64,000 nucleotides of DNA, taken from NCBI RefSeq assembly GCF_006016075.1, contig NZ_CP040093.1, positions 124,001 to 188,000 on the forward strand, given 5' to 3'. The notes under the pieces are model-generated. The model was not told the origin of the DNA and made no database searches. It saw nothing but the letters and a program-made list of their open reading frames with translations. Within the stretch, counting starts at the first letter, position 1, and each line of letters opens with the position of its first letter. A program made the translations under genes and the position numbers. Below, piece after piece: positions 1,250-51,108 of this stretch. Source of the stretch: Caloramator sp. E03 (GTDB lineage Bacteria > Bacillota > Clostridia > Clostridiales > Caloramatoraceae).

Positions 1250-2431
1250 ATGGCGTTTAGACTAGCTAACAGAATGAACAATCTCAAGGCTTCTGAAATT
1301 CGTGAGCTTTTAAAACTTGCAGAAATGCCTGAGATAATTTCATTTGCAGGAGGTATGCCAGCTCCTGAACTATTCCCTATAAAGGAAATGGAATTTGTTA
1401 CAAAAAAAGTACTTGAAGATGAAGGAAAATTTGCTCTTCAATATGGTCCTACTGAAGGATATAAGCCCCTAAGAAAAATAATTGCTGAACAAAGAATGAT
1501 AGTTTCTGGTGTAAAAGTTGATGAAAGTAATATCCTAATCACAAGTGGCTCACAGCAAGGTCTTGACTTTACAGGAAGAATTTTTCTTGATAAAGATGAT
1601 ATAGTTATCTGTGAAAGTCCAAGTTACTTAGGTGCAATTAATGCATTTAAGGCTTATGAACCTAAGTTTGTTGAAATTCCAATGGACGATGATGGAATGA
1701 TAATGGAGGAACTTGAAAAAGCATTAGAAAAGTATCCTAATGCTAAATTCATATACACTATACCTGATTTCCAAAATCCAACCGGTAAAACCCTTTCTGT
1801 AGATAGAAGAAAAAGAATGGTTGAACTTGCTGAGAAATATAACATTCCAATAATAGAAGATAACCCTTATGGAGAATTAATATATGAAGGTGAAGTTTTA
1901 CCTTCAATTAAAAGTTTTGATAAGAAAGGCTTGGTTGTTTACCTTGGAACTTTCTCAAAAACATTCTGTCCTGGTCTTAGAATTGGTTGGGTATGTGCAG
2001 ACCATGAGATACTATCAAAGTATATAATAGTAAAGCAAGGAGCAGATCTTCAAACAAACTCAATGTCACAAAGAGAAGCTGCAATATTCATGCAAAATTA
2101 TGATTTAAATGAACACGTTAATAAAATAAAACAAGTATATAAGAAGAGACGAGATCTTATGCTTGAAACTATGGAAAAGGAATTTCCAAAGAGCTGTACC
2201 TTCACTCATCCTAAGGGTGGATTATTTACATGGGTTACTCTCCCTGAAGGATTAGATGCTGCTAAAATACTTGAAATATGCTTAAAAGAAAATGTTGCCT
2301 TTGTACCTGGTGGTTCCTTTTTCCCAAATGGAGGTCATGCAAATCATTTTAGGCTTAATTTTTCAAATATGACTGAGGAAAAGATAGTTGAAGGTATTAA
2401 AAGGCTTGGAAAAGTTTTAAGAAGTCTATAA
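1250..2431 (+). CDS. PLP-dependent aminotransferase, 2-aminoadipate/aromatic (LysN/ARO8-like) type
   Basis: A 393-residue fold-type I aminotransferase. The PLP lysine is in GTFSKTFCPGLRIGW (about Lys237), and the family features PDFQNPTGKTL and EDNPYGEL are present. The sequence resembles the multi-substrate LysN/ARO8-like group of stand-alone aminotransferases (related to the MocR catalytic domain but with no GntR-type DNA-binding domain). These usually act on 2-aminoadipate, aromatic or branched-chain amino acids. A TTG at 1232 is also in frame, but GGAGGTG at 1234-1240 places the true start at the ATG at 1250. A hairpin follows the stop, so it is probably monocistronic. The exact substrate cannot be read from sequence. 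Confidence 0.85.
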   Translation: MAFRLANRMNNLKASEIRELLKLAEMPEIISFAGGMPAPELFPIKEMEFVTKKVLEDEGKFALQYGPTEGYKPLRKIIAEQRMIVSGVKVDESNILITSGSQQGLDFTGRIFLDKDDIVICESPSYLGAINAFKAYEPKFVEIPMDDDGMIMEELEKALEKYPNAKFIYTIPDFQNPTGKTLSVDRRKRMVELAEKYNIPIIEDNPYGELIYEGEVLPSIKSFDKKGLVVYLGTFSKTFCPGLRIGWVCADHEILSKYIIVKQGADLQTNSMSQREAAIFMQNYDLNEHVNKIKQVYKKRRDLMLETMEKEFPKSCTFTHPKGGLFTWVTLPEGLDAAKILEICLKENVAFVPGGSFFPNGGHANHFRLNFSNMTEEKIVEGIKRLGKVLRSL

Positions 2432-13322: not shown

Positions 13323-14051
13323 TTATAAATAATTTAATTTCTTAAGGTTTTCCCTTAGCCTTACAATAGCTCTGCTGTGCAGCTGTGAAACCCTCGATTC
13401 AGAAATATTTAATATTTTACCAATTTCTTTTAAAGTTAACTTTTCAAAATAATATAGATTAAGTATTATCTTATCTTTCTCTGAAAGCATATCTATAGCC
13501 TTTTTTAACATATTTTGCTTTTCATTATCTTCTATTATTACATCCGGCTGAGGGCTTGTACTATCTTTTATAATACTTTTAAACTTTACATCCTCCTCAT
13601 CAGATTTAAAAAGCACTTCATCAAGAGATATGATTGATATGTAATTTATATAGGACTCAATGTTCCTAATCTCTTCAGTTGACATCCCACTATAATTTGA
13701 AAGTTCCTCTTCGGTAGGTTCTCTATTAAGTTTTGTTTCTAATTCATTTTTTAATTGATTAAGATAATTCAATTTAGAAAAAGCACTCTTTGGTATCCAG
13801 CTTATCTTTCTAAGCTCGTCTATAATTGCACCTCTTATTCTTAAGGTAGCATAAGTTTCAAACTTTAAACCCTTTGTAGGATCAAACCGTTCAATAGCAT
13901 CTATTAATCCTATTATGCCAAAACTAATCAAATCCTCATATTCAAGCCCTGGTGGTTTCCCGGCAACAAGCCTTGATGCAATATATTTTACATAAGGCAA
14001 ATATTTTATAATCATCTCTTCCCTTTCATCAAAGTGTTGATAGCATTTCAT
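13323..14051 (-). CDS. fliA: RNA polymerase sigma factor FliA/SigD (sigma-28)
   Basis: A 242-residue sigma-70-family factor of the flagellar type. Region 2 is seen in EYEDLISFGIIGLIDAIERF and FETYATLRIRGAIIDELRK, the latter diagnostic for FliA/SigD/WhiG. Region 4 ends in LTLKEIGKILNISESRVSQL. AGGAGGTG precedes the ATG. The gene sits in the early operon read by sigma-A. Its likely targets are in this window: TAAA-N15-CCGATA-like promoters before flgM, fliC, the nonulosonate operon and flaG. FlgM, encoded at 50762-51040, is the expected anti-sigma partner. Confidence 0.95.
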   Translation of the reverse strand: MKCYQHFDEREEMIIKYLPYVKYIASRLVAGKPPGLEYEDLISFGIIGLIDAIERFDPTKGLKFETYATLRIRGAIIDELRKISWIPKSAFSKLNYLNQLKNELETKLNREPTEEELSNYSGMSTEEIRNIESYINYISIISLDEVLFKSDEEDVKFKSIIKDSTSPQPDVIIEDNEKQNMLKKAIDMLSEKDKIILNLYYFEKLTLKEIGKILNISESRVSQLHSRAIVRLRENLKKLNYL

Positions 14052-32981: not shown

Positions 32982-33380
32982 TCATTTAATAACAAGTCTT
33001 CTCATTGAAATTCGTGAATTAGCTTGGTTTATAAGAGCATTATATAAAATAGTATTTGTTGCAAGGTTTACCATCTCATTATCAATGTCAACGTTATTTC
33101 CATCTGTTCTCATTGATGTGCTTTTGTCTTTTACAACATCATAATTTAGATTTGACAGACTATTTCCTTTTTTAATATGTTTTTCGTTTGTAGTAGCAAG
33201 ATCAATACTCCTATTTTCAAGAGCATCATTTAATTTATCTTCAAACACTACCCTACTTGCTTTAAAACCCTTTGTATTTACATTTGCTATATTGTTTGCT
33301 ATAACCCTTCCTCTTTCAGAAGATGCATCTAGACTTTTTTTTAGCAAGCTATATGATATTTCATCAATTTTCTCCACCAT
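32982..33380 (-). CDS. flgB: FlgB, proximal rod protein (first gene of the early operon)
   Basis: A 132-residue FlgB: ANNIANVNTKGFKASRVVFE at about 28-47 and DNEMVNLATNTILYNALINQ near the C-terminus are typical. It opens the 22-kb early operon. AAGGAG precedes the ATG, and a sigma-A promoter (TTGACA-N17-TAAATT) lies 46 bases further upstream. Confidence 0.96.
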   Translation of the reverse strand: MVEKIDEISYSLLKKSLDASSERGRVIANNIANVNTKGFKASRVVFEDKLNDALENRSIDLATTNEKHIKKGNSLSNLNYDVVKDKSTSMRTDGNNVDIDNEMVNLATNTILYNALINQANSRISMRRLVIK

Positions 33381-34742: not shown

Positions 34743-34769
34743 GTATCGGTAAACTAATTTTTATCTTTA
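34743..34769 (-). promoter_or_regulatory. Sigma-28 promoter of flaG-fliS
   Basis: On the minus strand TAAA (34766-34769), 15 bases and ACCGATAC (34743-34750), close to the FliA/SigD consensus TAAA-N15-GCCGATAA. It lies 30 bases before the flaG ATG. Confidence 0.75.
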
Positions 34770-34887: not shown

Positions 34888-35994
34888 TTAAATATTCCTT
34901 AAAACTTCACAAATCTTTTTAATTTCTTCCTTTTTTAATGAAACTGAACTTGGTAGATTAATTCCCTTTAAACTTACTTCATCTGTAATACTTAAATCTC
35001 CACATCTACAATTTTTATAGGGTGGCATTGTGTGAACAGGAATAAAGAATGGTCTTGTTTCAATTCCTTCTTCGAACATTATTTTTATAAGTTCATCCCT
35101 TGAAACAGGAAAACCATCTTCAATCAAAATTGAATATAACCAAAATACATTCCTGGTTTGTGATTTTTCAATTGGTAAAGTAATATTTTCAATACCTTTA
35201 AGAAGTTCATAATAAAAAGATGCATTCTCTCTTTTAATTTTTATATATTCTTCAATATTTTCAAGCTGTGCACATCCCATAGCTGCCAAAATATTAGGCA
35301 TTCTAAAGTTAAATCCTATATCTGTATGATAAAATCCTTTATTCTCCAATGTTACTTTAGATTGTGTTGATAAAAATTTAGCCTTCTTACCTAATTGCTC
35401 ATCATTGGTTACAAGCATTCCACCTGCACCTGTTGTTATAAGTTTATTACCATTAAAGCTAAAGCATCCAATATGTCCAATAGTTCCAGTATGTTTTCCT
35501 TTATATATTGAGCCTAAGCTTTCTGTTGCATCCTCTATAACATACAAATTATATTTATTTGCAATCTCCATAACCTTGTCCATATCAACAATATTACCGT
35601 AGATATGAACCGGTAATATTGCCTTTGTTTTTGGTGTTATAAGTTCTTCTATCTTGTCTGCGTCCATAACGAATGTATCTCTGCATATATCTACAAAAAC
35701 AGGTTCTGCACCTACATACTTTACTGCATTAACAGGTGCAATAAATGTCATAGATGGAACTATAACCTCATCACCTTCACCAATTCCAAGAACCTCTAAA
35801 GCTAAATGAAGTGCTGAAGTACCATTTACAGTTACAACAGCACTTTTAGAACCAACGAACTTTGCAAAATCTCTTTCAAACTTATCTACATAGCTTCCAA
35901 CAGAAGATACCCAATTTGTATCTAAACATTCCTTTATATATTTCCATTCATTTCCCTTTATCTCTGGCACGCAAAGAGGAATCAATTTATTCAT
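34888..35994 (-). CDS. legC: LegC-type sugar aminotransferase (DegT/DnrJ/EryC1 family)
   Basis: A 368-residue PLP aminotransferase of the DegT family, start MNKLIPLCVPEIKGNEWKYI as in LegC enzymes. The PLP lysine is in GCFSFNGNKLITTGAGGML, and HIYGNIVDMDKV and VIEDATESLGS are further marks. In the Campylobacter legionaminic acid pathway LegC aminates the 4-keto sugar nucleotide made by LegB. It is the last gene of the seven-gene operon; no strong terminator follows. Family is certain; LegC versus another C4-aminotransferase is inferred from the operon. Confidence 0.82.
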   Translation of the reverse strand: MNKLIPLCVPEIKGNEWKYIKECLDTNWVSSVGSYVDKFERDFAKFVGSKSAVVTVNGTSALHLALEVLGIGEGDEVIVPSMTFIAPVNAVKYVGAEPVFVDICRDTFVMDADKIEELITPKTKAILPVHIYGNIVDMDKVMEIANKYNLYVIEDATESLGSIYKGKHTGTIGHIGCFSFNGNKLITTGAGGMLVTNDEQLGKKAKFLSTQSKVTLENKGFYHTDIGFNFRMPNILAAMGCAQLENIEEYIKIKRENASFYYELLKGIENITLPIEKSQTRNVFWLYSILIEDGFPVSRDELIKIMFEEGIETRPFFIPVHTMPPYKNCRCGDLSITDEVSLKGINLPSSVSLKKEEIKKICEVLRNI

Positions 35995-36009
35995 CTCCCT
36001 TTTAATTTT

Positions 36010-37002
36010 TTAAACATTATATATATTCGTCTTATATAAATGCAAATTATTTTTTAACCACTCAATTGTTTCTTTTAATCCTTCCTCTAAAGTATACCTT
36101 GGCATCCAACCTGTTAACTCCTTTATCTTTGTATTATCAGCCCAAAGCCTATTAACTTCGCTTTTTTCTGGTCTTATTCTTTCTTCATCACATACAATCT
36201 CAACTTTTCTTCCAATTATATTAATTATTTTCTTCACTAAATCTCCAATTGAAATCTCATAGTTTGAACCTGCATTAATAACCTCACCAATTGTATTTTC
36301 ACATTCTGCAACCTTTATAAATGCCTCAACTGTATCCTTTACATAATTAAAATCCCTTGTTGGTGTTAAGCTTCCCAGCTTAATTTTACTGGCACCAGAT
36401 AATATTTGAGTTATTATGGTTGGAATAACTGCCCTTGCAGATTGTCTTGGACCATAAGTGTTAAATGGTCTTAATGTTACAACAGGTAAATTATAACTCC
36501 TATAATAACTTTCAGCTATTTTATCTGCACTAATTTTTGATGCAGAATATGGAGATTGCCCCTGAAGAGGATGTTTTTCATCAATTGGTACATATAGTGC
36601 TGTACCATAGGTTTCTGAAGTGGATGTATGAACCACTTTCTGTACATCATATTCTCTACAAGCTTCTAATACATTAGTTGTTCCTTCTACATTAGTTTTT
36701 ATGTATGCCATAGGGGATACATAAGAATACGGTATCGCAATAAGTGCAGCAAGATGAAAAACTACCTCTTGCCCATTAATTATCTTTTTCATACCGTCAT
36801 ATTCCCTTATATCTCCCAAAACCACATTTATATTGTCTTTTACATTTTTATCAAAGGTTTCAATCCAACCCCAATTATTAAAGGAATTATATTGTACAAG
36901 AGCTGTTACATCAGCCCCTAATTCAACTAATCTTTCTGTTAAATGGCTGCCTATAAACCCTTCTGCTCCTGTTATTAAAACTTTTTTGCCCTTTAAGTCC
37001 AT
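36010..37002 (-). CDS. legB: LegB-type NAD-dependent sugar-nucleotide 4,6-dehydratase
   Basis: A 330-residue short-chain dehydrogenase/epimerase. The NAD-binding motif ITGAEGFIGSHLTERL (GxxGxxG) is at about 10-25. The catalytic segment VHTSTSETYGTALYVPIDE with PYSASKISADK (YxxxK) is in the middle. The group includes GDP-GlcNAc 4,6-dehydratase of legionaminic acid synthesis and related CDP/UDP enzymes. It stands directly before the LegC aminotransferase (15-base gap), the natural next step. Nucleotide specificity is inferred from the PtmE-like guanylyltransferase in the same operon. Confidence 0.8.
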   Translation of the reverse strand: MDLKGKKVLITGAEGFIGSHLTERLVELGADVTALVQYNSFNNWGWIETFDKNVKDNINVVLGDIREYDGMKKIINGQEVVFHLAALIAIPYSYVSPMAYIKTNVEGTTNVLEACREYDVQKVVHTSTSETYGTALYVPIDEKHPLQGQSPYSASKISADKIAESYYRSYNLPVVTLRPFNTYGPRQSARAVIPTIITQILSGASKIKLGSLTPTRDFNYVKDTVEAFIKVAECENTIGEVINAGSNYEISIGDLVKKIINIIGRKVEIVCDEERIRPEKSEVNRLWADNTKIKELTGWMPRYTLEEGLKETIEWLKNNLHLYKTNIYNV

Positions 37003-37016
37003 CTATATCTTCTCCT

Positions 37017-37658
37017 TTATACCTTTGTTTTTATAATCTTAGCAGGAACTCCAACAGCGACTTTATTATCACCAATATTATCAATCACTACAGCCCCTGC
37101 ACCAATGGTAGTATTTTCACCAATATTGATACTATGTATAACTGTTGCACCAATACCTATATGTACATTATTACCAATTTTACAATTACCTCCTAATTTT
37201 GCACCAGGGGATATATGACAATTATCTCCAATAATACAATCGTGTTCTATTATAGAAGATGTATTTATTATTGAATTTTTGCCTACATAAGCATTAGCAT
37301 TAACAACTGCATTTGCCATTATGCAAACTCCTTCTTCAATTGAAGCATAAGGTGAAACTATTGAATTTTTATGTATAAGTGTTGGAACTTTAAATCCTAT
37401 TTGTTTAAGCTTTTTATATAATTCATATCTAAATGCTAAATTATCTATTGAACCAAGCGAAACAAAGGCATATTCTACGCCTTTGTTAAATAAATCCTGC
37501 AAAACTTCATCATCACCTATTATAGGTATTCCAAGCAAATTACCACATATATTTGATTTATCTGTAATTCCTACTATTTCAAACTCTTCAATACTTTTTA
37601 TAATGTCTATAATAACCTTACAATGCCCACCTGCGCCTACTAAAACAATTTTTTTCAT
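37017..37658 (-). CDS. NeuD/PglD-family sugar O/N-acetyltransferase (LegH-like)
   Basis: A 213-residue protein with an N-terminal nucleotide-fold domain, KKIVLVGAGGHCKVIIDIIK, and a C-terminal left-handed beta-helix of hexapeptide repeats (from about residue 95: GVCIMANAVVNANAYVGKNS and later GENTTIGAGAVV). The catalytic-type histidine lies in IEHDCIIGDNCHISPGA. In the legionaminic pathway LegH acetylates the 4-amino group; NeuD acts on sialic acid oxygen. I start at the ATG at 37658, with GTGAG just upstream; a longer frame to 37670 exists. Confidence 0.8.
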   Translation of the reverse strand: MKKIVLVGAGGHCKVIIDIIKSIEEFEIVGITDKSNICGNLLGIPIIGDDEVLQDLFNKGVEYAFVSLGSIDNLAFRYELYKKLKQIGFKVPTLIHKNSIVSPYASIEEGVCIMANAVVNANAYVGKNSIINTSSIIEHDCIIGDNCHISPGAKLGGNCKIGNNVHIGIGATVIHSINIGENTTIGAGAVVIDNIGDNKVAVGVPAKIIKTKV

Positions 37659-37671
37659 AATACTCACCATA

Positions 37672-38823
37672 TTAAAAAGTTAATTTTTTTTCTAAAAGCC
37701 TTTTATCCAACTTTATACTTTTTAACTTTTCAACAATTTTTATACTTGTTGTACCATCCCCAAAAATGTTGTTAACATAATCAAGATTCTTTTTAAATTT
37801 ATCGTCATAAAGTGCAATATTAATTGCATTTTGTATTTCTATAACTGAATAATTGCAATCTATCACATTACCGCATCTTAATCTACCCTTTTGTCTATTT
37901 CCTATATTAATAACAGGTTTTTTAAATATAGGTGTTTCTATAATACCACTTGATGAATTACCTATTACTAAATCACAATTTTTAATTAAGCTTAAATATT
38001 TTTTTTGACCTAAGCTATGAAAAATATATGCATTTCTTTGATTTTTAACAAACTCATTTATTTTATCTATAATTATTTTGCTTCCAAAATCAGCATTAGG
38101 ATATGTAAATATATAATTAGCATCAAACTTTTGTATTGTTTTTAGTAAATTATCTATTTGCTCTACTGTATTTTCTACTTCAAGTGTTACAGGATGATAT
38201 GTTATTAGAAATGTTAACTTATCTAAATTAACATTTAATTCCTCTTCTAACTCACTTTTATCTAACAATTCCATCCTCATAATATTTTCTATTCCTGCTT
38301 GCCCAACATTAAATACTCTCCACTCTTCTTCACCCATTTTTATTATTCTTTCTCTATAATATTCAGCCCCTGCAAAATGAATATGTGCCATCTTTGTTAT
38401 TGCATGCCTTATTTGCTCATCGACAGCACCTTCTGTTGATTCCCCTCCATTCATGTGAGCAATAGGAATGTTCATCATCATTGCACAAGTTGCTGCTATA
38501 AAAGTTTCATACCTATCACCAAGTATTAATAAAATATCTGGTTTTAATCTATCAAAAGCTTGTGCCATTTGTATAAGTTCTAATCCCATTGACTTTACTA
38601 TAGCACTCTTATTTTTAGAACTTATAAGCATATCTATCTCTTCATCAATTTTAAACCCATCTTTTTTTATTTGCTCAACTGTATATCCATACTCTGGACA
38701 AAGATGATTTCCTGTAACTATAAGTTGAAGTTCTAAATCTTTATCTTCCTGTATCCTCTTCATAGTCCAGTATAATAATCCATATTCTGACCTTGTTCCT
38801 GTTACAACAAGTATTTTTCGCAT
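37672..38823 (-). CDS. neuC: NeuC/LegG-type hydrolysing UDP/GDP-sugar 2-epimerase
   Basis: A 383-residue enzyme of the hydrolysing UDP-GlcNAc 2-epimerase (NeuC) family. It has TGTRSEYGLLYWTMKRIQED at the start, LGDRYETFIAATCAMMMNIP, the HMNGGESTEGAVDEQIRHAI segment, and GNSSSGIIETPIFKKPVINI near the C-terminus. In legionaminic synthesis LegG releases the free 2,4-diacetamido hexose for condensation with PEP. It lies 9 bases after the synthase gene. Confidence 0.88.
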   Translation of the reverse strand: MRKILVVTGTRSEYGLLYWTMKRIQEDKDLELQLIVTGNHLCPEYGYTVEQIKKDGFKIDEEIDMLISSKNKSAIVKSMGLELIQMAQAFDRLKPDILLILGDRYETFIAATCAMMMNIPIAHMNGGESTEGAVDEQIRHAITKMAHIHFAGAEYYRERIIKMGEEEWRVFNVGQAGIENIMRMELLDKSELEEELNVNLDKLTFLITYHPVTLEVENTVEQIDNLLKTIQKFDANYIFTYPNADFGSKIIIDKINEFVKNQRNAYIFHSLGQKKYLSLIKNCDLVIGNSSSGIIETPIFKKPVINIGNRQKGRLRCGNVIDCNYSVIEIQNAINIALYDDKFKKNLDYVNNIFGDGTTSIKIVEKLKSIKLDKRLLEKKLTF

Positions 38824-38831
38824 AAGCTCAC

Positions 38832-39857
38832 CTACTTAATCATATCAAATGTAATTACTTCATCCTTTTGGATATTTTTAATTGCTATTTTACCTAATAT
38901 CATATCTATATATACAGGACTTAATCCCTTTTCTGGCCTTTTAAATGTCAAGTTTTCAAGGCTCAATTTTTCTCCAGCTTCAATTTCTCTTTTTGCAACT
39001 ATGGATTTTCTTGCTGAAAACCTTGTATTTTCCTCATTTATATTACATCTTTTTATTCCGTCTCCCATTGCTTTTTCAATATTTCTTATACTTCGTACCA
39101 TATTTTTTAACTCTTTAGGATTTAATGATGCCCTGTGATCTGGTCCTTCCATATCTTTATCAAGTGTAAAGTGTTTTTCAATAACTACTGCACCCAAAGA
39201 AGCTGCAGCAATAGGAACTTCTATTCCTATTGTGTGGTCTGAATATCCAACAGGTAATTTAAAAGCATCCTTTAATGTAACCATTGCTTTTAAATTAACA
39301 TCTTCATAGTCTGTCGGATAATTTGATGTACAATGTAATAAAATTATTTTATCATTTCCTTCTTGCTTTATTGAATTAACAGCACATTCAACCTCTGCTA
39401 AATTCGCCATACCTGTTGAAATTATCATAGGTTTATTAAGTTTTGCTATATATCTTAAAAGTGGAATGTTTGTCAAATCCCCTGAACTTATTTTATATAA
39501 ATCTAAACTTAGTTTTTCTAATAAATCAACACTTTCAAAATCAAATGGAGTAGAAATAAAGATTAATTCCTTTTCTTCTGCATATTTTTTTAAAATAACA
39601 TGGTCTTCAAATGATAGTTCAAATTTTTTTAGCATTTCATATTGTGTACCTCTTCCAGTGGTATTTACTTGATAATTTGCCTTAGGTGCATCCTTTGTAA
39701 CTAGGTTTTCTGCCTTAAATGTTTGAAATTTAACTGCATCAGCACCTGCTTCCTTTGCAACATCAATTAATTTTTTTGCTATTTCTAAACTTCCATTATG
39801 ATTAACTCCTGCTTCTGCAATAACAAAACATTTATTTTGGTTAAATAATCTTTCCAT
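38832..39857 (-). CDS. neuB: NeuB-family nonulosonic acid synthase (LegI-like)
   Basis: A 341-residue synthase that condenses a hexose derivative with phosphoenolpyruvate. It has CFVIAEAGVNHNGSLEIAKK near the N-terminus, DAVKFQTFKAENLVTKDAPK, the metal and PEP site region GYSDHTIGIEVPIAAASLGA, EKHFTLDKDMEGPDH, and a C-terminal SAF antifreeze-like domain (VAKREIEAGEKLSLENLTFK). Sialic, legionaminic and pseudaminic synthases share this fold; LegI is preferred because of the LegB/LegC/PtmE neighbours. Overlaps the cytidylyltransferase gene by 17 bases. Confidence 0.9.
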   Translation of the reverse strand: MERLFNQNKCFVIAEAGVNHNGSLEIAKKLIDVAKEAGADAVKFQTFKAENLVTKDAPKANYQVNTTGRGTQYEMLKKFELSFEDHVILKKYAEEKELIFISTPFDFESVDLLEKLSLDLYKISSGDLTNIPLLRYIAKLNKPMIISTGMANLAEVECAVNSIKQEGNDKIILLHCTSNYPTDYEDVNLKAMVTLKDAFKLPVGYSDHTIGIEVPIAAASLGAVVIEKHFTLDKDMEGPDHRASLNPKELKNMVRSIRNIEKAMGDGIKRCNINEENTRFSARKSIVAKREIEAGEKLSLENLTFKRPEKGLSPVYIDMILGKIAIKNIQKDEVITFDMIK

Positions 39858-40563
39858 AGTTATCTGCTCCTTGCTTTAATATAAACTCAGCAAATTTAAA
39901 ATCAATTTCATCATCAATGTCTACTGATGAAATTTTATCCATAATTATAGGAACTGTATTATCTGTGTACCAATTCTTATTTTTTAATATTATTCCAACT
40001 TTCGCTATATAAATTGCTCCATTTAACCTATAAACAATAGGCAAATCCTGCCGCCTTGCATAAAACTTGTTATCATTTAAGTAATCAACCATTTTCCCAT
40101 TCTTTATAACCTTCATCCAATAGGGATTAACTTCACTTTCACACACACTAACAGCAGAATCTGCATCTTTATTATACATCTCTAAAATTGCCTCATCTAT
40201 TTGCTTTGAATTTCTTAAAGGTGATGTACATTGAAGGCACATCACATAGTCAAAATTATAGTTTTCATCATTTAATAAATAATTTATAGCATGAATTATT
40301 GGTTCAATTCCGGGGGTATCATCCTGTGCAAGTTCCTTTGGTCTAAAAAAAGGGACTTCTGCACCAAAAGACTTAGAAATCTCTGCTATTTCTAAGTCTT
40401 CAGTTGAAACAATAACTCTATCTACATATTTACTTTTTAAAGCTTCTTCTATTGTATATGCGATAAGCGGTTTTCCATTTAAATTTTTTATATTTTTTCT
40501 TGGAATTCCTTTTGATCCACCTCTTGCTGGTATAATTGCTACAACACATTTATTTCCTATCAT
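39841..40563 (-). CDS. CMP-nonulosonate cytidylyltransferase (NeuA/LegF family)
   Basis: A 240-residue NeuA-type enzyme activating the nonulosonate with CTP. The nucleotide-binding motif is VAIIPARGGSKGIPRKNIKN, followed by NGKPLIAYTIEEAL and the QCTSPLRNSKQIDEAI segment with the metal aspartates near the C-terminus (SSVDIDDEIDFKFAE). It is the final soluble enzyme; the CMP-sugar would feed the Maf glycosyltransferase at 42044-43765. GAAGGATG precedes the ATG. Confidence 0.88.
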   Translation of the reverse strand: MIGNKCVVAIIPARGGSKGIPRKNIKNLNGKPLIAYTIEEALKSKYVDRVIVSTEDLEIAEISKSFGAEVPFFRPKELAQDDTPGIEPIIHAINYLLNDENYNFDYVMCLQCTSPLRNSKQIDEAILEMYNKDADSAVSVCESEVNPYWMKVIKNGKMVDYLNDNKFYARRQDLPIVYRLNGAIYIAKVGIILKNKNWYTDNTVPIIMDKISSVDIDDEIDFKFAEFILKQGADNYGKII

Positions 40564-40567
40564 AAAA

Positions 40568-41635
40568 TCATCCTTCTTTTTCCACTGATATTAATTTATA
40601 TATATCCTCATTGATTTTGTTGTAATCTTCAAGCCTTCCTATATCCATCCAATAATCATTTATTTCATAATATCCAACCTTCATATCTTTTTCTATACAG
40701 CTATTTATTAGATCTGTTATTTCAAAATAGGAGTCCTCAGGAATAAAATCAATCACAGCCGGCGATAAACAATAGATCCCCCCATTTATTAAAAATTCAA
40801 CATTTGGTTTTTCTTTTAACGCTTTTATTCTATTATTATCTACATCAATAACTCCATATGGTACTTCAAATAAATATTTTCTTACTCCAACTGTTATATC
40901 AAAACTATTTTCTTTGTGGTACTTCATCATTGAATCAACATTTAAATTAGTAAATATATCTCCATTAATAACAAAAAAATCATCATCAATAAATTCTCTG
41001 CATAATTTTATTCCTCCAGCAGTACCTAAACGTTTTTTTTCTTTAACATAGTTTATTCTTACACCATAAGCTATCCCATCTTGAAAATAATTTTCAATTA
41101 TTTCCGACTTATAATTTAAAGATAATAAAAATTTATTATACCCATACTGTTTGAAATTGTTTATTATATGAAAAAGAAGAGGATCATTGCCTACCTTTAA
41201 CATTGGTTTTGGAACTTCTTTTGTAAGATCCTTAAGTCTTGTACCTAATCCTCCTGCCATAATAACAACTATATTTTTTTTCCCAACAGGAAGGAGAATA
41301 TCATTAATAGTTATTAAATCAATAACTATATTATTTTCATCTACAATAGGAATATCTTTAACAGCCTTTTTAATAAATAAATCTTTAATTTCGCTTCTTG
41401 TCATATTTGAATTTGCTGCTATGGGGTTATAGTGTGCTATTTTTTCTACAGATTCATCTAAAGATATTCCATTTAAAATTCCACGTCTAATATCTCCATC
41501 AGTTATTGTTGCAAGGAGCTTTTTTTCATCATCAACCAATAAGACTATACCTTTGGCTCCTAAATCTAATTTTTTTAATGCATCCTTAATTGAATCATTC
41601 TTATAAACAAGTAATTTATCTATGTTGTTTTTCAT
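40568..41635 (-). CDS. PtmE-like sugar-phosphate nucleotidyltransferase with N-terminal CBS pair
   Basis: A 355-residue protein: two CBS motifs (about 5-120, with GDIRRGILNGISLDESVEKI and RSEIKDLFIKKAVKDIPIVD) followed by an NTP-transferase domain. The latter starts VVIMAGGLGTRLKDLTKEVP and has FFVINGDIFTNLNVDSM. This architecture is that of PtmE, the glucosamine-1-phosphate guanylyltransferase that opens the GDP-sugar legionaminic route in Campylobacter. CBS pairs often bind adenine nucleotides, so activity may respond to energy status. It is the first gene of the operon, preceded by a sigma-28-type promoter. Confidence 0.8.
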   Translation of the reverse strand: MKNNIDKLLVYKNDSIKDALKKLDLGAKGIVLLVDDEKKLLATITDGDIRRGILNGISLDESVEKIAHYNPIAANSNMTRSEIKDLFIKKAVKDIPIVDENNIVIDLITINDILLPVGKKNIVVIMAGGLGTRLKDLTKEVPKPMLKVGNDPLLFHIINNFKQYGYNKFLLSLNYKSEIIENYFQDGIAYGVRINYVKEKKRLGTAGGIKLCREFIDDDFFVINGDIFTNLNVDSMMKYHKENSFDITVGVRKYLFEVPYGVIDVDNNRIKALKEKPNVEFLINGGIYCLSPAVIDFIPEDSYFEITDLINSCIEKDMKVGYYEINDYWMDIGRLEDYNKINEDIYKLISVEKEG

Positions 41636-41669
41636 TTTTATCAGTCCTTTAAAAAAACTTTCATTTTAT

Positions 41670-41696
41670 TTATCGTATTAAAATATTCATTCTTTA
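41670..41696 (-). promoter_or_regulatory. Sigma-28 promoter of the nonulosonate biosynthesis operon
   Basis: On the minus strand TAAA (41693-41696), 15 bases and TACGATAA (41670-41677). The -10 is nearly identical to that of the flgM promoter (TACGATAT), with the same 15-base spacing. It lies in the 65-base gap before the PtmE-like gene. Confidence 0.7.
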
Positions 41697-41700
41697 TCTT

Positions 41701-42057
41701 TTATATGTTACTCAAAGTTCTATTTATAATATCGTAAAATATTTCAACCTGAGGCATAAGCTCAAATTCAACAACATCAGCAACATATAATAAATCCAAG
41801 TTATTATATCCATCAATATATTTTTGTATTTTTTCCTGTATTTGTTTTAAATCAAGCTTTTCACCAATAATTCTAGAAGCATAAACTGAAACTTCTAAAA
41901 CCCAGTTAAATCCTTCTAAAATATTTTTAAAATATGTTTCTATATCAATTAAGTTCCTTTCTGAAATATTGATTACCATTTTGTTCATCCCACTATAAAG
42001 CTTTTCACAATAGCCTACAGCTTCAGATAGTATTTCTATATTTTCATTTTGATTCAT
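41701..42057 (-). CDS. Uncharacterised helical protein downstream of the Maf glycosyltransferase
   Basis: A 118-residue, probably all-helical acidic protein with no signal, membrane segment or recognised domain. Two parts look like amphipathic helices: ILSEAVGYCEKLYSGMNKMV and LQIQEKIQKYIDGYNNLDLL-like sequence (read as KQIQEKIQKYIDGYNNLDLL). GGAGG lies inside the end of the maf gene, and the frames overlap by 14 bases, so the two are translationally coupled. This tight pairing suggests a partner or chaperone of the glycosyltransferase, but nothing in the sequence proves it. Confidence 0.7.
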   Translation of the reverse strand: MNQNENIEILSEAVGYCEKLYSGMNKMVINISERNLIDIETYFKNILEGFNWVLEVSVYASRIIGEKLDLKQIQEKIQKYIDGYNNLDLLYVADVVEFELMPQVEIFYDIINRTLSNI

Positions 42058-43765
42058 TAATCAATTCCTCCAGCTTTTTTATTATTTCTTCTATATGCGG
42101 CAGTGCATATTCTATGCAAGAATTTATATTTTCATATAATACCTTCCCTTTTTCAGCTACAAACTTAATATGCTCAACTTCATCGTTGAAATTGCCAATC
42201 TTTTTATCATAAAAGGCAATATCTATTTCTTTTATTATAGGTGCAAATAATGTATTAATAAGTAAAAACTCTCTCTGCTTCTTATTAAATTTTTCATCGA
42301 TATAATCTAATTTTTTTAGACTTTTTCTATAGCTTTTATAATCGTTATAATATTTATAAAGTAAATTTTTATTTTCAAATACTGCTTCTTCTGCCATTTT
42401 CTTTGCCTTTATTAATTCATTTAGGTTTTCTTTTAAATTTTTTATGACCAAAGCAATATCTTCATTTCTTTTTTTATATTGTTTTATGTAGCTTTTATCA
42501 ATCTTATTGTCTTTAAACTGTTCAATAACTTCACTAAGCTTCATAACCTTTGTTCCTTCAATATTAGCGCCGCCTTCAGTGGCATTAATATATGTCCTGT
42601 CATCAAAATGTTTAATAAATTCCTCAAAACTTTTTCTAAAAGAATCTAATCCATAGGATGTTGGTACTTCATTTCCATATATATCCTTTACAAAAAGATC
42701 ATATTTATCAGGCTGTATTTTTTCTCCTTCTATAGTAGCATTCTTTGCATGGATTTGATTGTTAGTATATGCCAAATCCTGTCCAATAAATATTATAGGA
42801 TTGCATCCTAAATAGTGAGCAATTGCAGTACATGAATGAGCTACAGAACCGCCTTGATATAATAAGTCCGTTTTAAAATCTCCTAATTTACAGCTTATTT
42901 GATAAAATGTTGGAGAAGAAAAATATATTTTTTTACCTTTATATTCTTTTATTATATTTTTATTTGCCCCTTCGCTGTAAAATAGTGGTGTATCATAATT
43001 TAATGCTTCCTTTGATACTTTATACATTGCTTCACTTCCATCTATTACACATGCAAAATCGCATTTTATACCTTCTCTTTGCAATGTACTTAATGTTCTT
43101 ATTCCTGTTATAATAATAAAATTATCTTCATTGCCTTTAAGTAAATTAATATTTTTTTCTAAAGAAGGCCCTGCTGATACAATTATAGCAGGTTTATCTT
43201 TATAAACATTTTTATATTCATCAAGTTTTTCATCAATAAGGACTGATGGAAGATTGTATATGTAATTTTCAAACCAATCCTTTGAAAACACTATCCTTGT
43301 ATTTTCATTTATTGTTTTATCCATTACATAGTCCTTTATCATCTCTTTCAAATTGTAAACATCATTTGGAAATACCAAATCGTAATTTGAAAAAATAATA
43401 AATTCAATAAATCTTTTATCTATTGAATTTTTAAGTTCATTTTTGAAACTATTACTGTCCAAAGACAATACTTTAATGTTTAAATTAGTTTTTGATATAT
43501 TCTCTTCTAAAATTTCTTTTAATTCTTTTGTTGGTTCTATAAAAATAATATCTCTTTCTTTAAATTCATCAATATATTCATAAATCCACTTTCCACCTGA
43601 TGAACCAAAAATAATTATTTTATAGTTTTTATTTACGGGTAAAAACTTATTTCTGAAATTCTCAATTTCCCTTCTCATATTATACTTACTGCCTAAATAG
43701 ATACTTCTATCTTTATAATTTATTTTAATCACTTCTATATTGTCAAAACTATTTTCTATTACCAT
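42044..43765 (-). CDS. Motility-associated factor (Maf) flagellin glycosyltransferase, DUF115 type
   Basis: A 573-residue protein of the Maf/MptE-like family that transfers nonulosonic acids onto flagellin Ser/Thr in the cytoplasm. The DUF115 core shows KPAIIVSAGPSLEKNINLLK (about residue 195), CDFACVIDGSEAMYKVS, YQGGSVAHSCTAIAHYLGCN and PIIFIGQDLAYTNNQIHAK. The C-terminal ~150 residues are helical. GAAAGGGG precedes the ATG. It begins 19 bases after the fliC terminator region with no clear promoter of its own, so it probably relies on read-through from fliC. CMP-activated sugar would come from the adjacent operon. Confidence 0.88.
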   Translation of the reverse strand: MVIENSFDNIEVIKINYKDRSIYLGSKYNMRREIENFRNKFLPVNKNYKIIIFGSSGGKWIYEYIDEFKERDIIFIEPTKELKEILEENISKTNLNIKVLSLDSNSFKNELKNSIDKRFIEFIIFSNYDLVFPNDVYNLKEMIKDYVMDKTINENTRIVFSKDWFENYIYNLPSVLIDEKLDEYKNVYKDKPAIIVSAGPSLEKNINLLKGNEDNFIIITGIRTLSTLQREGIKCDFACVIDGSEAMYKVSKEALNYDTPLFYSEGANKNIIKEYKGKKIYFSSPTFYQISCKLGDFKTDLLYQGGSVAHSCTAIAHYLGCNPIIFIGQDLAYTNNQIHAKNATIEGEKIQPDKYDLFVKDIYGNEVPTSYGLDSFRKSFEEFIKHFDDRTYINATEGGANIEGTKVMKLSEVIEQFKDNKIDKSYIKQYKKRNEDIALVIKNLKENLNELIKAKKMAEEAVFENKNLLYKYYNDYKSYRKSLKKLDYIDEKFNKKQREFLLINTLFAPIIKEIDIAFYDKKIGNFNDEVEHIKFVAEKGKVLYENINSCIEYALPHIEEIIKKLEELINESK

Positions 43766-43783
43766 TTTTTACCCCTTTCTTAA

Positions 43784-43814
43784 AAAAAGAACCAAGAATA
43801 TCTTGGTTCTTTTT
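43784..43814 (-). terminator. Terminator after fliC
   Basis: AGAACCAAGA (43788-43797) pairs with TCTTGGTTCT (43801-43810) around a 3-base loop. On the minus strand the hairpin is followed by seven Ts, of which four also extend the stem. It lies right after the flagellin stop and just before the maf SD. Confidence 0.85.
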
Positions 43815-43818
43815 AAAA

Positions 43819-44634
43819 CTATCTTAATAACTGAAGAACTTGCTGTGGAAGCTGATTTGCCTGAGCAAGCATAGCCTGTGCAGCCTGCTGGAGAATGCTG
43901 TTCTTTGAGTAAGCCATCATTTCCTTAGCCATATCAACATCTCTGATTCTGCTTTCAGCAGCCTGTAAGTTTTCAGATGAAGTATTCAAGTTAGCTATTG
44001 TATGTTCAAGCCTGTTCTGATATGATCCGAGCTTTGCTCTTTCACTTGATACTTTATTAATAGCTGCATTTATTTTATCAATTTGTCCAGTAATGCTAGC
44101 TGCACTTGTTGTTACATCTATTCCATCAACACTTAAAGCTGCTGCATCCATAGTTGCAATTGCTAATGTAATAGTTTGTCCACTATTTGCACCAACCTGG
44201 AATACTACGTTACTTGCTGTACCAGTTAATAATTTCTTTGTGTTAAATTCAGTCTGGCTTGCAATCCTGTTGATTTCATTTTTTAACTGGCTGATTTCCA
44301 ACTGTATCTGGCTTCTATCAGCTGAAACATTTGTATCATTAGTTGCCTGTACTGCAAGCTCTCTCATTCTTTGAAGTATTGAGTGGGTTTCATTTAAAGC
44401 ACCTTCTGCTGTCTGAATAAGTGAAACTCCATCCTGAGCATTTCTTGAAGCCTGATCAAGCCCTCTGATTTGAGCTCTCATCTTTTCTGATATAGCAAGA
44501 CCTGCAGCATCGTCTCCAGCCCTATTTATTCTAAGACCTGAAGAAAGCTTTTCCATTGATTTAGCTGCTGCATTAACATTGATTGACATATTTCTGTGTG
44601 CATTCATTGCATTAAGATTGTGATTGATTATCAT
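43819..44634 (-). CDS. fliC: Flagellin
   Basis: A 271-residue flagellin consisting of the conserved D0/D1 ends and only a short middle. N-terminal marks are [20 protein letters not shown] and [20 protein letters not shown]; the C-terminus ends [20 protein letters not shown]. The central region (about 135-190) is short but Ser/Thr/Ala-rich, giving possible O-glycosylation sites for the adjacent Maf enzyme. The gene has its own sigma-28 promoter, a 110-base leader with hairpins including a CsrA-like site, and its own terminator. It is the only flagellin gene in the window. Confidence 0.97.
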
Positions 44635-44641
44635 TTGTTTT

Positions 44642-44716
44642 CCCTCCTTGAATTTTTAGTAAGCTTCCCTGCTTACATTTATAATTTTAATTAGTCTTAT
44701 GGCCACTCGACTAATT
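44642..44716 (-). promoter_or_regulatory. fliC leader with CsrA-type binding hairpin
   Basis: On the minus strand GTAAGC-AGGGAA-GCTTAC (44659-44676) is a 6-bp hairpin with GGA in its loop, 9 bases upstream of the spacer to the SD AAGGAGGG (44642-44649), which contains a second GGA. A further stem, AATTAGTC / GACTAATT (44689-44696 with 44709-44716), lies upstream. This two-site layout matches CsrA control of the hag mRNA in Bacillus, where FliW releases CsrA. Confidence 0.6.
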
Positions 44717-44752
44717 TTTTATTAGCTTTAAAGCTCTTATCTTACACTTTAT

Positions 44753-44779
44753 TAATCGGAATTATTTTTAATAACTTTA
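44753..44779 (-). promoter_or_regulatory. Sigma-28 promoter of fliC
   Basis: On the minus strand TAAA (44776-44779), 15 bases and TCCGATTA (44753-44760), close to the FliA consensus. The predicted start near 44747 gives a leader of about 110 bases. Confidence 0.8.
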
Positions 44780-44797
44780 TATAAAAAATATATTTTT

Positions 44798-45130
44798 TTA
44801 TAATCTTTGACTTAAAATGTAAGGTTCTGACTGAATTTTATTGTATGTACTATTTACCTGATCTCTTTTAACTGCTTTATCTAAATTTTCTTTTGCAAGA
44901 TTCTTTTTTGTGTTTATTAAAGATATCATTTCTTGTTCAAGTTCATATAATCCAAGACTATAAGATATTCTCTTAAATTCTTCTTGAGTATACTTAAATC
45001 TTTTTATCTTATTTATTACTTCTTCTCTTTCCTTAATTAATGATTTTAAATCATAGTTATCATTTTCTAAACATTTTATAATCTCTAATGTTTTATTTTT
45101 GTACTGATTTAAAAGTTCATTTAAATCCAT
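44798..45130 (-). CDS. FliT-like flagellar export chaperone candidate
   Basis: A 110-residue, all-helical, charged protein (NELLNQYKNKTLEIIKCLEN, then KSLIKEREEVINKIKRFKYT). It lies directly downstream of fliD, where Gram-positive genomes usually place the FliD chaperone FliT. Sequence similarity in this family is low, so the call rests on size, helical pattern and position. The frame opens earlier (45166), but AAAGGTGA before the ATG at 45130 is the better start; the next fliC promoter begins about 20 bases after its end. Confidence 0.65.
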   Translation of the reverse strand: MDLNELLNQYKNKTLEIIKCLENDNYDLKSLIKEREEVINKIKRFKYTQEEFKRISYSLGLYELEQEMISLINTKKNLAKENLDKAVKRDQVNSTYNKIQSEPYILSQRL

Positions 45131-45152: not shown

Positions 45153-47114
45153 TTAAGATATTCCAAGCTGCTGATATAGCCAGCTCATCTGAGAGTTTAA
45201 CTCTTCCATTGCAGTTTCAAGGCTTGAAAACTGATCATAATATTTTTCCTTATCATCAGAATATTTCTGGTTTAGCTTCTGTATTAAAATACTTTGTCTG
45301 TATATTTGATCTGGAAATGTATTCGAACCAGTTGAACCATATATACTGTAATCATTCTGCTTATTTGCCATTTTTGTAAGTATCGCTGAATTTGATGTTA
45401 CTCCTGCCACTCCAACATTTTTTACTATTATGTCGTTTATTCTTTGGAATATACCTTGGTTCTTATACTTAGTATTAGAGTCCGCATCACTTGAATATTT
45501 GCAAAAAAGATTTGCAATTTTTTCACCATTCTCTTTTAATGCATTTTTTAATATTTCTTCTCCACCATCTATAAATTCAATTTTCCCTTCCTTTGTTGAA
45601 TCAAGCCCAAGGGTTTTTGAATTAAAACTAATTCCTGCTCCTTCTACGGCATCGTAGAAGGCTCTTCTCATGCTTACAAGAAGATTTTGAAGATTGGTAT
45701 CGTTTCTTAAAATACCCTGCTTCGCTTTTTCCTCCCATTTTTCTATGTCATCCTCTGACATTTCTTTCTTCTGGGCATCTGTAAGAGGTGAATAATCATA
45801 ATCCCTCTTTTCATTTAATATAGTATATATTTTATCTACAATACTGTTATATCCGTCGATGAAATCCTTTATTTTGTTAAATACTGTATCAACATTCTGG
45901 GTTATTGTAATATCTGTACTACCTGTTCCTGTAAGATTATAGGTAACATTATTAATTGTGAAACTATTATTGCTTTGGGTTATTGTTGTTGCAGTTCCTC
46001 CTGGTGAAGTTATTGTAACTTTTGCATCCTGCCCTTGGGAAGCTGATCCATATACATTTCCAGATAGATTTGTTGATAAATTTAATGAAGATAGCAAATC
46101 GGTATCTGTATCTGAATATCCGCTCATACTTTTAATTACCTTTAAAGCTGATGTGCTTCCTGTGTTTGCATTTTGAATTACAAACTGTCCCGATAACTGG
46201 TCATATTTTGCAGTTACCTTATTTGAAGTAGCTGTTGAAATTGCATCAATAACATCTTTTATCTTTTTAGTACCATCTGAATTGTCTATTGTAATTGATA
46301 TATCTGTACCGTTGTAGTTTAAGTTCAAATACATTATTTTGTTTGTATTAGAATTTAAATCCGTCAGCTTTGTATTTATTGATGGAGTTATAATACTTCT
46401 GCTTCCAAAGCCTGTCCCTCCATCATCTGTAATTTTAGTACTGCCACTTATAGAATTAAGCCTTATGTATGTTCCTGAAGAATCTAATAGAAGAGATGCT
46501 GATATTTTCCCTTTTAAATTTGAATCAGCTGTTATTTTAGAATTTATAAGACTTATTAAGTCATCCATTGAGCCTGAAAAATCAGAATCAATAGTTATGC
46601 TTGTATCCGAACTTCCATCTGAATTTATGTCAAATTGTATCGTCTTACCATTCCAGTCAGTACTGCTGCTTATTTTAGCCTGAGTAAAAAGTGAATTTCC
46701 ACTAATACTTGCAGCTTTTGCTGTCTGAAGAACATTAACACTATAAGTTCCTTCAACAGCACCTGTTGTAGCCGTTGCACTTGCAACTCCGGATACAGTT
46801 GATACAGCATCAAAAGCAGAATAATTCTTTGAGGAAAGCATATTTGAGGATGATAAGGATGAATTTAAATATTTATTTTGAAATGTTTTTATTTCAGAGA
46901 TTATGTCCTTATATGTTTCCTGCTTCCATTGAAGAATCTGAAGATCCTGCTTTGCTCTATTTATTTTTGCCTGATCGTAATAAAGCATTTTTTCAACTAT
47001 GCTATCAACATCAAGGCCTGTTGAAAGACCAGTTATCCTTAAAGTAGAACTGCTTGTTGATACATTAATAGATGTTGAACTTGATGATGAACTTGTAGAA
47101 GAAACACTGCTCAC
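45153..47114 (-). CDS. fliD: FliD, filament cap protein (HAP2)
   Basis: A 653-residue cap protein. It starts with a serine-rich stretch, then LRITGLSTGLDVDSIVEKML, the standard FliD N-terminus, and KQDLQILQWKQETYKDIIS-like coiled coil (read as AKQDLQILQWKQETYKDI). The middle is a large Ser/Thr/Asn-rich variable domain; the C-terminus SSLETAMEELNSQMSWLYQQ is typical. The start is GTG with AAGGAGGG 8 bases upstream. It is placed between csrA and the FliT-like gene. Confidence 0.95.
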   Translation of the reverse strand: MSSVSSTSSSSSSTSINVSTSSSTLRITGLSTGLDVDSIVEKMLYYDQAKINRAKQDLQILQWKQETYKDIISEIKTFQNKYLNSSLSSSNMLSSKNYSAFDAVSTVSGVASATATTGAVEGTYSVNVLQTAKAASISGNSLFTQAKISSSTDWNGKTIQFDINSDGSSDTSITIDSDFSGSMDDLISLINSKITADSNLKGKISASLLLDSSGTYIRLNSISGSTKITDDGGTGFGSRSIITPSINTKLTDLNSNTNKIMYLNLNYNGTDISITIDNSDGTKKIKDVIDAISTATSNKVTAKYDQLSGQFVIQNANTGSTSALKVIKSMSGYSDTDTDLLSSLNLSTNLSGNVYGSASQGQDAKVTITSPGGTATTITQSNNSFTINNVTYNLTGTGSTDITITQNVDTVFNKIKDFIDGYNSIVDKIYTILNEKRDYDYSPLTDAQKKEMSEDDIEKWEEKAKQGILRNDTNLQNLLVSMRRAFYDAVEGAGISFNSKTLGLDSTKEGKIEFIDGGEEILKNALKENGEKIANLFCKYSSDADSNTKYKNQGIFQRINDIIVKNVGVAGVTSNSAILTKMANKQNDYSIYGSTGSNTFPDQIYRQSILIQKLNQKYSDDKEKYYDQFSSLETAMEELNSQMSWLYQQLGIS

Positions 47115-50330: not shown

Positions 50331-50762
50331 CTATACCTTGGTAGTAAAAACGTTTACTACTTTACCGTTTTCTATTTTACCACTGTTTCCGTAAGTGATA
50401 ACATTTTTATTTGGATTTAAAGCCGAAGTAATCATTTTTATATAATTCAAAGACTGTTTTGTTAAAACCATATTTGTTTCTTCTTTTTCCTTAATTGATT
50501 TAACAATAGATTTTAATTTATCAACTTTATCCTTATCTAAAATGCCTTCTGTTACTAGTTCTTCTGCTGTTTTTTCTTTATATATGCTTATTCTAATCTT
50601 TTCAATTTCAACTATCTTCCTTGCAATTTCCTTTTTCTCTTCAATAATCTTTGGAAGTTCACTTGCTTTATCTTTTATCAATACATCCTTCTCAACATCA
50701 AGAAGGCTATCAAGGCTTAATAGAATCTCGATTTGTTTTTTAACAATCTCATTAATATCCAT
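50331..50762 (-). CDS. flgN: FlgN, chaperone for FlgK and FlgL
   Basis: A 143-residue helical protein, LLSLDSLLDVEKDVLIKDKA and the YIKMITSALNPN C-terminal-type segment, matching FlgN-family chaperones. Sequence is poorly conserved, so position between flgM and flgK is important evidence. The first base of its ATG is shared with the flgM stop codon. Confidence 0.88.
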   Translation of the reverse strand: MDINEIVKKQIEILLSLDSLLDVEKDVLIKDKASELPKIIEEKKEIARKIVEIEKIRISIYKEKTAEELVTEGILDKDKVDKLKSIVKSIKEKEETNMVLTKQSLNYIKMITSALNPNKNVITYGNSGKIENGKVVNVFTTKV

Positions 50763-51040
50763 TATTTATCACATTCCTTTATATATTCCATTATACTTTT
50801 AGCAAGTTCCTCAGCATTAAAATTATAATTACCTTCATCTATAAGTCTTTTTATTTCATCAACTCTTCCATTTTTAATTTCTGTATTTTTAGCTAAATCT
50901 ATATACTTTTGTAATTCTCTTCCTTCTTTTGATATTTCTATACAGTCATTTAAACTTATTTTATTTTCATTTGTCTTAGATATATTTAAATTTTTAGAAT
51001 AAATATTAATAACCCTGTTTATATTCATATCAATCTTCAT
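50762..51040 (-). CDS. flgM: FlgM, anti-sigma-28 factor
   Basis: A 92-residue FlgM. The C-terminal helical region VDEIKRLIDEGNYNFNAEEL followed by AKSIMEYIKECDK is the conserved FliA-binding part; the N-terminus is an unfolded stretch with MNINRVINIYSKN. FlgM holds FliA inactive until it is exported through the finished hook. It is the first gene of the late operon and has a sigma-28 promoter, so FliA activity drives its own inhibitor. Confidence 0.93.
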   Translation of the reverse strand: MKIDMNINRVINIYSKNLNISKTNENKISLNDCIEISKEGRELQKYIDLAKNTEIKNGRVDEIKRLIDEGNYNFNAEELAKSIMEYIKECDK

Positions 51041-51081: not shown

Positions 51082-51108
51082 ATATCGTATATTTTATAAT
51101 AAACTTTA
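51082..51108 (-). promoter_or_regulatory. Sigma-28 promoter of the flgM late operon
   Basis: On the minus strand TAAA (51105-51108), 15 bases and TACGATAT (51082-51089). It sits directly after the fliY terminator hairpin and about 40 bases before the flgM ATG. Confidence 0.75.

Follow-up and report, generated by a model that had tools for sequence, protein, structure and literature searches.

Mutation of sigD in C. difficile 630 lowers expression of the glycosylation genes CD0241-CD0244, alongside the late flagellar genes, 11- to 50-fold (PMC3865298). In the parts of that study drawn on here, the authors detected no SigD promoter adjacent to these genes and proposed that they are co-transcribed with fliC; the SigD consensus is given as TAAA-N13-16-GCCGATAW, with TAAA and CG 15 to 18 bases apart. 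A start for CD0241 was later mapped in a C. difficile start-site map (PMC7438776). A 2026 survey has fliD and flgB on either side of the flagellar hypervariable regions, or glycosylation islands, of Clostridium (PMC13317340). The portions of the Plesiomonas (PMC4481668) and Shewanella (PMC3120886) reports consulted here are silent on sigma-28 promoters of such sugar genes, and among the titles and abstract openings of the open-licence literature we found no clostridial legionaminic-acid operon with a described sigma-28 promoter.

We analyzed 64,000 nucleotides of the Caloramator sp. E03 genome (NZ_CP040093.1, positions 124,001 to 188,000; hereafter the window), in which a comparable island is flanked by fliD (45153-47114) and flgB (32982-33380). 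The sigma-28 factor and its anti-sigma factor are both encoded in the window, and the genes concerned are as follows.

13323..14051, minus strand: fliA/sigD, sigma-28 factor (NCBIfam FliA/WhiG subfamily model above cut-off; sigma-70 regions 2, 3 and 4)
34888..40563, minus strand: CMP-sugar synthetase (LegF/PseF-like), NeuB-like (LegI), NeuC-like (LegG), NeuD-like (LegH), LegB and LegC genes (Pfam)
40568..41635, minus strand: CBS plus nucleotidyltransferase gene (PtmE/LegX-like), first gene of the sugar operon (Pfam PF00571, PF00483)
41701..42057, minus strand: 118-aa ORF 3' of maf and overlapping its end (without a Pfam family; relative in C. paridis at 59%)
42044..43765, minus strand: maf, flagellin glycosyltransferase (Pfam PF01973; NCBIfam PseD domain model below cut-off)
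43819..44634, minus strand: hag, flagellin (Pfam PF00669, PF00700)
50762..51040, minus strand: flgM, anti-sigma-28 factor (Pfam PF04316 above cut-off; NCBIfam 39.5 against a cut-off of 40.75)

The seven sugar genes (41635-34888) are tightly packed, neighbors overlapping or lying no more than 16 nt apart. NCBIfam models for NeuB, NeuC, NeuD, LegB and LegC score above cut-off. The CMP-sugar synthetase matches Pfam PF02348, and its NCBIfam PseF score lies below cut-off (191.0 against 205.7). For the CBS/NTP-transferase gene no NCBIfam equivalog lies above cut-off among the matches listed; it is called PtmE/LegX on the basis of its domains, the initial annotation and the part of PMC13317340 used here. 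The set comprises LegB dehydratase, LegC aminotransferase, acetyltransferase, hydrolysing epimerase, synthase and CMP transferase, and by gene content it is the CMP-legionaminic acid pathway, with that sugar as the predicted product. The 118-aa ORF is perhaps a GlfM-like partner of Maf, a name taken from the same part of PMC13317340.

A gap of 65 nt (41636-41700) separates the 118-aa ORF from the CBS/NTP-transferase gene and contains two elements read directly from its sequence.

41670..41696, minus strand: sigma-28-type promoter, with -35 TAAA at 41696..41693, a 15-nt spacer and -10 TACGATAA at 41677..41670
41645..41650, minus strand: ribosome-binding-site-like AAAGGA, 9 nt 5' of the ATG of the CBS gene

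The minus strand from 41696 to 41670 reads TAAAGAATGAATATTTTAATACGATAA, that is, TAAA, 15 nt and TACGATAA, so that the motif reported in the initial annotation in the gap preceding the PtmE-like gene is indeed there. The same annotation had likened it to the flgM promoter, and direct reading of both agrees: the spacers are the same and the -10 elements differ in the last base alone. The site thus combines a -35 TAAA, the CGATAW core in the -10 and a spacer of about 15, as expected of sigma-28 promoters. Its -10 opens with TA, as does that of the flgM site here, where the consensus has GC. From this site we infer a transcription start at about 41663. A seven-codon frame, MKVFLKD (41632-41662), starts 3' of the promoter and 5' of the CBS gene, whose ribosome-binding site it overlaps; no ribosome-binding site of its own is visible in the gap sequence, and the frame is probably due to chance.

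We constructed a weight matrix from 13 sites preceding flagellin genes of relatives, none of them from this genome (the relatives-only matrix). Two training sites from locus L081, which were repeat-like and had poor leave-one-out scores, were excluded from later matrices. With the relatives-only matrix, the following further sites were found in the window.

34743..34769, minus strand: sigma-28-type site of flaG, directly 3' of the sugar operon (score 13.3)
44753..44779, minus strand: sigma-28-type site of hag (score 19.0)
51082..51108, minus strand: sigma-28-type site of flgM, TAAAGTTTATTATAAAATATACGATAT (score 17.1)

When both strands of the window were scanned, the 41696..41670 site ranked third with 16.2, after those of hag and flgM, and the fourth-best position (1380-1406, plus strand) reached 13.6. 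In Markov sequence, matches of at least 16.2 are expected 0.33 times per Mb with the dinucleotide composition of the window and 1.7 times per Mb with that of the gap. The gene list leaves 16 gaps of at least 40 nt on the minus strand (6,592 nt; some contain plus-strand genes), and four of them have a site scoring at least 13, namely those preceding flaG, the sugar operon, hag and flgM. No such site was present with this matrix in the gap 5' of flgB, an early gene. Since the flaG site lies directly 3' of the sugar operon, sigma-28-type sites frame the stretch running from hag to flaG.

The bare motif is common in the genome. TAAA-N17-CGATAW, which has the exact spacing of our site, matches 37 times in 2.98 Mb, mostly inside ORFs (all 37 were inspected), and spacers of N16, N17 and N18 are about equally frequent (23, 37 and 33 sites; 93 in total by hand count), against 265 genome sites for a reversed control pattern. 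We therefore rejected the idea that rarity of the exact motif would suffice by itself. Three of the six exact-spacing sites scoring at least 16.2 are within ORFs, so chance matches of this strength do exist, and the weight of 41696..41670 comes from the match together with its position in a gap. Only five of the 37 exact-spacing sites lie within 100 nt 5' of a long same-strand ORF: those of the sugar operon and flgM, which are the two present in the window, and three elsewhere (G000:C1:1088005, 1986831 and 1959631), of which two precede MCP-domain ORFs and one a Crp-like regulator. One of the MCP-domain ORFs also has a haem-NO-binding domain, and its sigma-28-like site overlaps an antisense 223-aa ORF. 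Searching the genome with a strict pattern that requires GTTT and GCCGATAA gave no hits.

We then compared the locus with its relatives. Scanning of a named genome collection gave 8 loci, an order-level search of 225 genomes gave matches in 36 (the present genome counted), and a class-level search of 391 genomes added one further distant relative, at the cut-off. Forty-three loci were annotated, and the 12 distinct ones with maf just 5' of the CBS gene were used. L015, L016, L019 and L021 were treated as duplicates of L073, L075, L076 and L077; L074 and L022, which have no maf match, were left out, as were the 25 loci L083-L107, in which hag-maf-CBS linkage was not seen (L085 has two maf genes and a more distant CBS gene). 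A matched hag was present in 11 of the 12; for L080, which has none, the region was begun arbitrarily 433 nt 5' of the maf ORF. In L073 and L076 the maf starts were taken later than those in the ORF list, whereby the L076 sigma-28 site is counted as 5' of maf.

None of the 12 relatives has a site scoring at least 11 in the gap 5' of the CBS gene, and positional conservation of the gap site was rejected on this set. Conservation in place does not define a promoter, but it is expected of one that is old and essential. Weaker sites 5' of the CBS gene in L075 (7.4, P 0.11), L076 (7.8, P 0.07) and L079 (10.3, P 0.07) were not counted as support. In L075 and L079, CTAAGTTT-N11-T[TA]CGATAA, a weaker sigma-28-like form, lies in the CBS gap, either inside a hairpin terminator or 3' of one.

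A site of at least 11 does lie between hag and the sugar genes in seven of the 12 relatives, 5' of maf in six (L017, L076, L078, L080, L081 and L082) and inside the maf ORF in one (L020). The opposite strand has three such sites in 152,566 nt, which gives 0.62 expected in the 31,352 nt examined, against the seven observed. The Poisson probability of at least seven sites, 4e-6, is a flattering figure, both because the matrix was partly trained on the flagellin promoters of these loci and because the hag-to-CBS region was picked after some of the sites had already been seen. A TCAAG form is present 5' of maf in L081 and L082. In C. paridis, a sigma-28-type site lies just 3' of LegC (L015 from 12845) and 5' of a flagellin-like ORF.

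C. paridis (L015/L073) is the closest relative with the same gene order, its CBS protein being 75% identical. Our hag is 86% identical to that of C. paridis, against 77% for the best match in its own family apart from itself. In two other genomes of the genus, CBS and maf have no close match and a comparable cluster is absent. The island (34888-43765) agrees best with C. paridis in gene order and identity, and the genus mates lack close CBS and maf genes, which suggests that it was exchanged between lineages.

Between hag and maf, folding predicts one further element.

43782..43814, minus strand: hairpin with a T-run (-16.2 kcal/mol)

This hairpin is probably an intrinsic terminator. A simple terminator scan did not list it; its T-run is partly paired within the stem. 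Hairpins with a T-run are present between hag and maf in 10 of the 12 relatives, eight by an energy of -13.5 or lower and two (L073 and L076) by eye. A matrix scan revealed no sigma-28 site between hag and maf in this genome.

Taken together, the evidence favors a working sigma-28 (SigD/FliA) promoter at 41696..41670, starting transcription near 41663 and driving the seven-gene legionaminic-acid operon as a class III unit; we put the probability of this reading, which is drawn from sequence, at roughly 0.75. The proposal of a sigma-28-type promoter in the initial annotation is thus well supported, by a score like those of hag and flgM, by strong sites in four gaps, by the presence of fliA and flgM, and by the lack of a 9/12 sigma-70 match in the gap.

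The main alternative is that the match arose by chance and that the sugar genes are transcribed only by sigma-28 read-through from hag that crosses a leaky hairpin, maf and the 118-aa gene, in which case they would still be class III. All these genes are on the same strand and 3' of the hag promoter, and neither folding nor the terminator scan found a hairpin terminator in the gap 5' of the sugar genes. In line with read-through, C. paridis has no sigma-28 site 5' of its CBS gene despite an identical hag-maf-118-aa-CBS order, and it and four other relatives (L073, L075, L077, L018 and L079) have no site of at least 11 anywhere from hag to the CBS gene; the co-transcription with fliC proposed for C. 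difficile (PMC3865298, in the part considered) would be a precedent. However, the energy of the hag-maf hairpin indicates a stable structure, and a match of this quality is improbable in a 65-nt gap: simulated gaps of the same composition reached the score of the site with P ~0.0003, by a matrix that included five sites of this genome without the 41696..41670 site itself. We therefore regard read-through as the sole source of sugar-gene transcripts as unlikely.

Very improbable is constitutive transcription of the sugar genes from a housekeeping sigma-A promoter in or 5' of the gap: two 9/12 sigma-70-like matches do lie on the minus strand in the 118-aa gene (41899-41870 and 41816-41787), no more than about 270 nt 5' of the CBS start, but the 18 such matches in 41600-44800 are not enriched over a shuffle mean of 19.9, and the gap itself (41636-41700) has none of at least 9/12, its best being 8/12.

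With a sigma-28 promoter at 41696..41670, expression of the island might proceed as follows. Many hag transcripts would halt at the hag-maf hairpin, and some would pass into maf and the 118-aa gene. The internal promoter would then restart transcription, adding expression for the sugar enzymes in a FliA-dependent manner. FlgM holds FliA until the hook-basal body is finished, and is then exported. Release of FliA by FlgM at completion of the hook-basal body would thus raise sugar supply together with flagellin. The relatives may often restart by means of a sigma-28 promoter 5' of maf, whereas here the restart would lie 3' of maf and 5' of the sugar pathway.

The initial annotation had further suggested that, were the promoter real, the sugar genes would form a class III operon and not a constitutive cluster, tying sugar supply to completion of the hook, a link that would follow from the general mechanism of FlgM export. 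Class III control is likely, although it does not depend on the 41696..41670 site, as the genes also lie 3' of the sigma-28 promoter of hag. Class III control of the sugar genes is accordingly likelier than the promoter itself, because read-through from hag and a promoter of their own would both give FliA dependence. A simple prediction follows from the promoter: with read-through from hag blocked, loss of fliA should still lower sugar-gene transcripts.

Making either flagellin or its sugar in the absence of the other would be wasteful. A sigma-28 promoter 5' of the pathway would explain how sugar supply matches filament growth in an island exchanged between species. More tentatively, a terminator after the flagellin gene and a movable sigma-28 restart promoter could be a general arrangement of clostridial glycosylation islands, with the promoter 5' of maf in certain species and, in our genome, separating maf from the sugar pathway; we consider this possible rather than probable. 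If it is true, the position of the restart promoter would determine how much transferase and sugar enzyme is made relative to flagellin, and the island would bring its class III control along to whatever site it inserts into.

Within the window, the 41696..41670 site resembles those of hag and flgM in its TAAAG, its 15-nt spacer, its CGAT core and its position in the gap just 5' of a gene. Unlike them, it precedes predicted sugar enzymes and not a flagellar structural or regulatory gene. The locus is like the Clostridium islands of the 2026 survey in its location between fliD and flgB and in its flagellin, maf and legionaminic-acid set, as far as the part of that survey used here describes them (PMC13317340); the survey covers gene content, and the word "promoter" is absent from its main text. 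The regulatory idea is close to the published C. difficile case. There the glycosylation genes likewise lie 3' of the flagellin gene, and they are class III; the 41696..41670 site fits the consensus from the considered part of PMC3865298. Unlike in C. difficile, for which that part reports no promoter of their own, the glycosylation genes here have a strong candidate site directly 5' of the sugar pathway.
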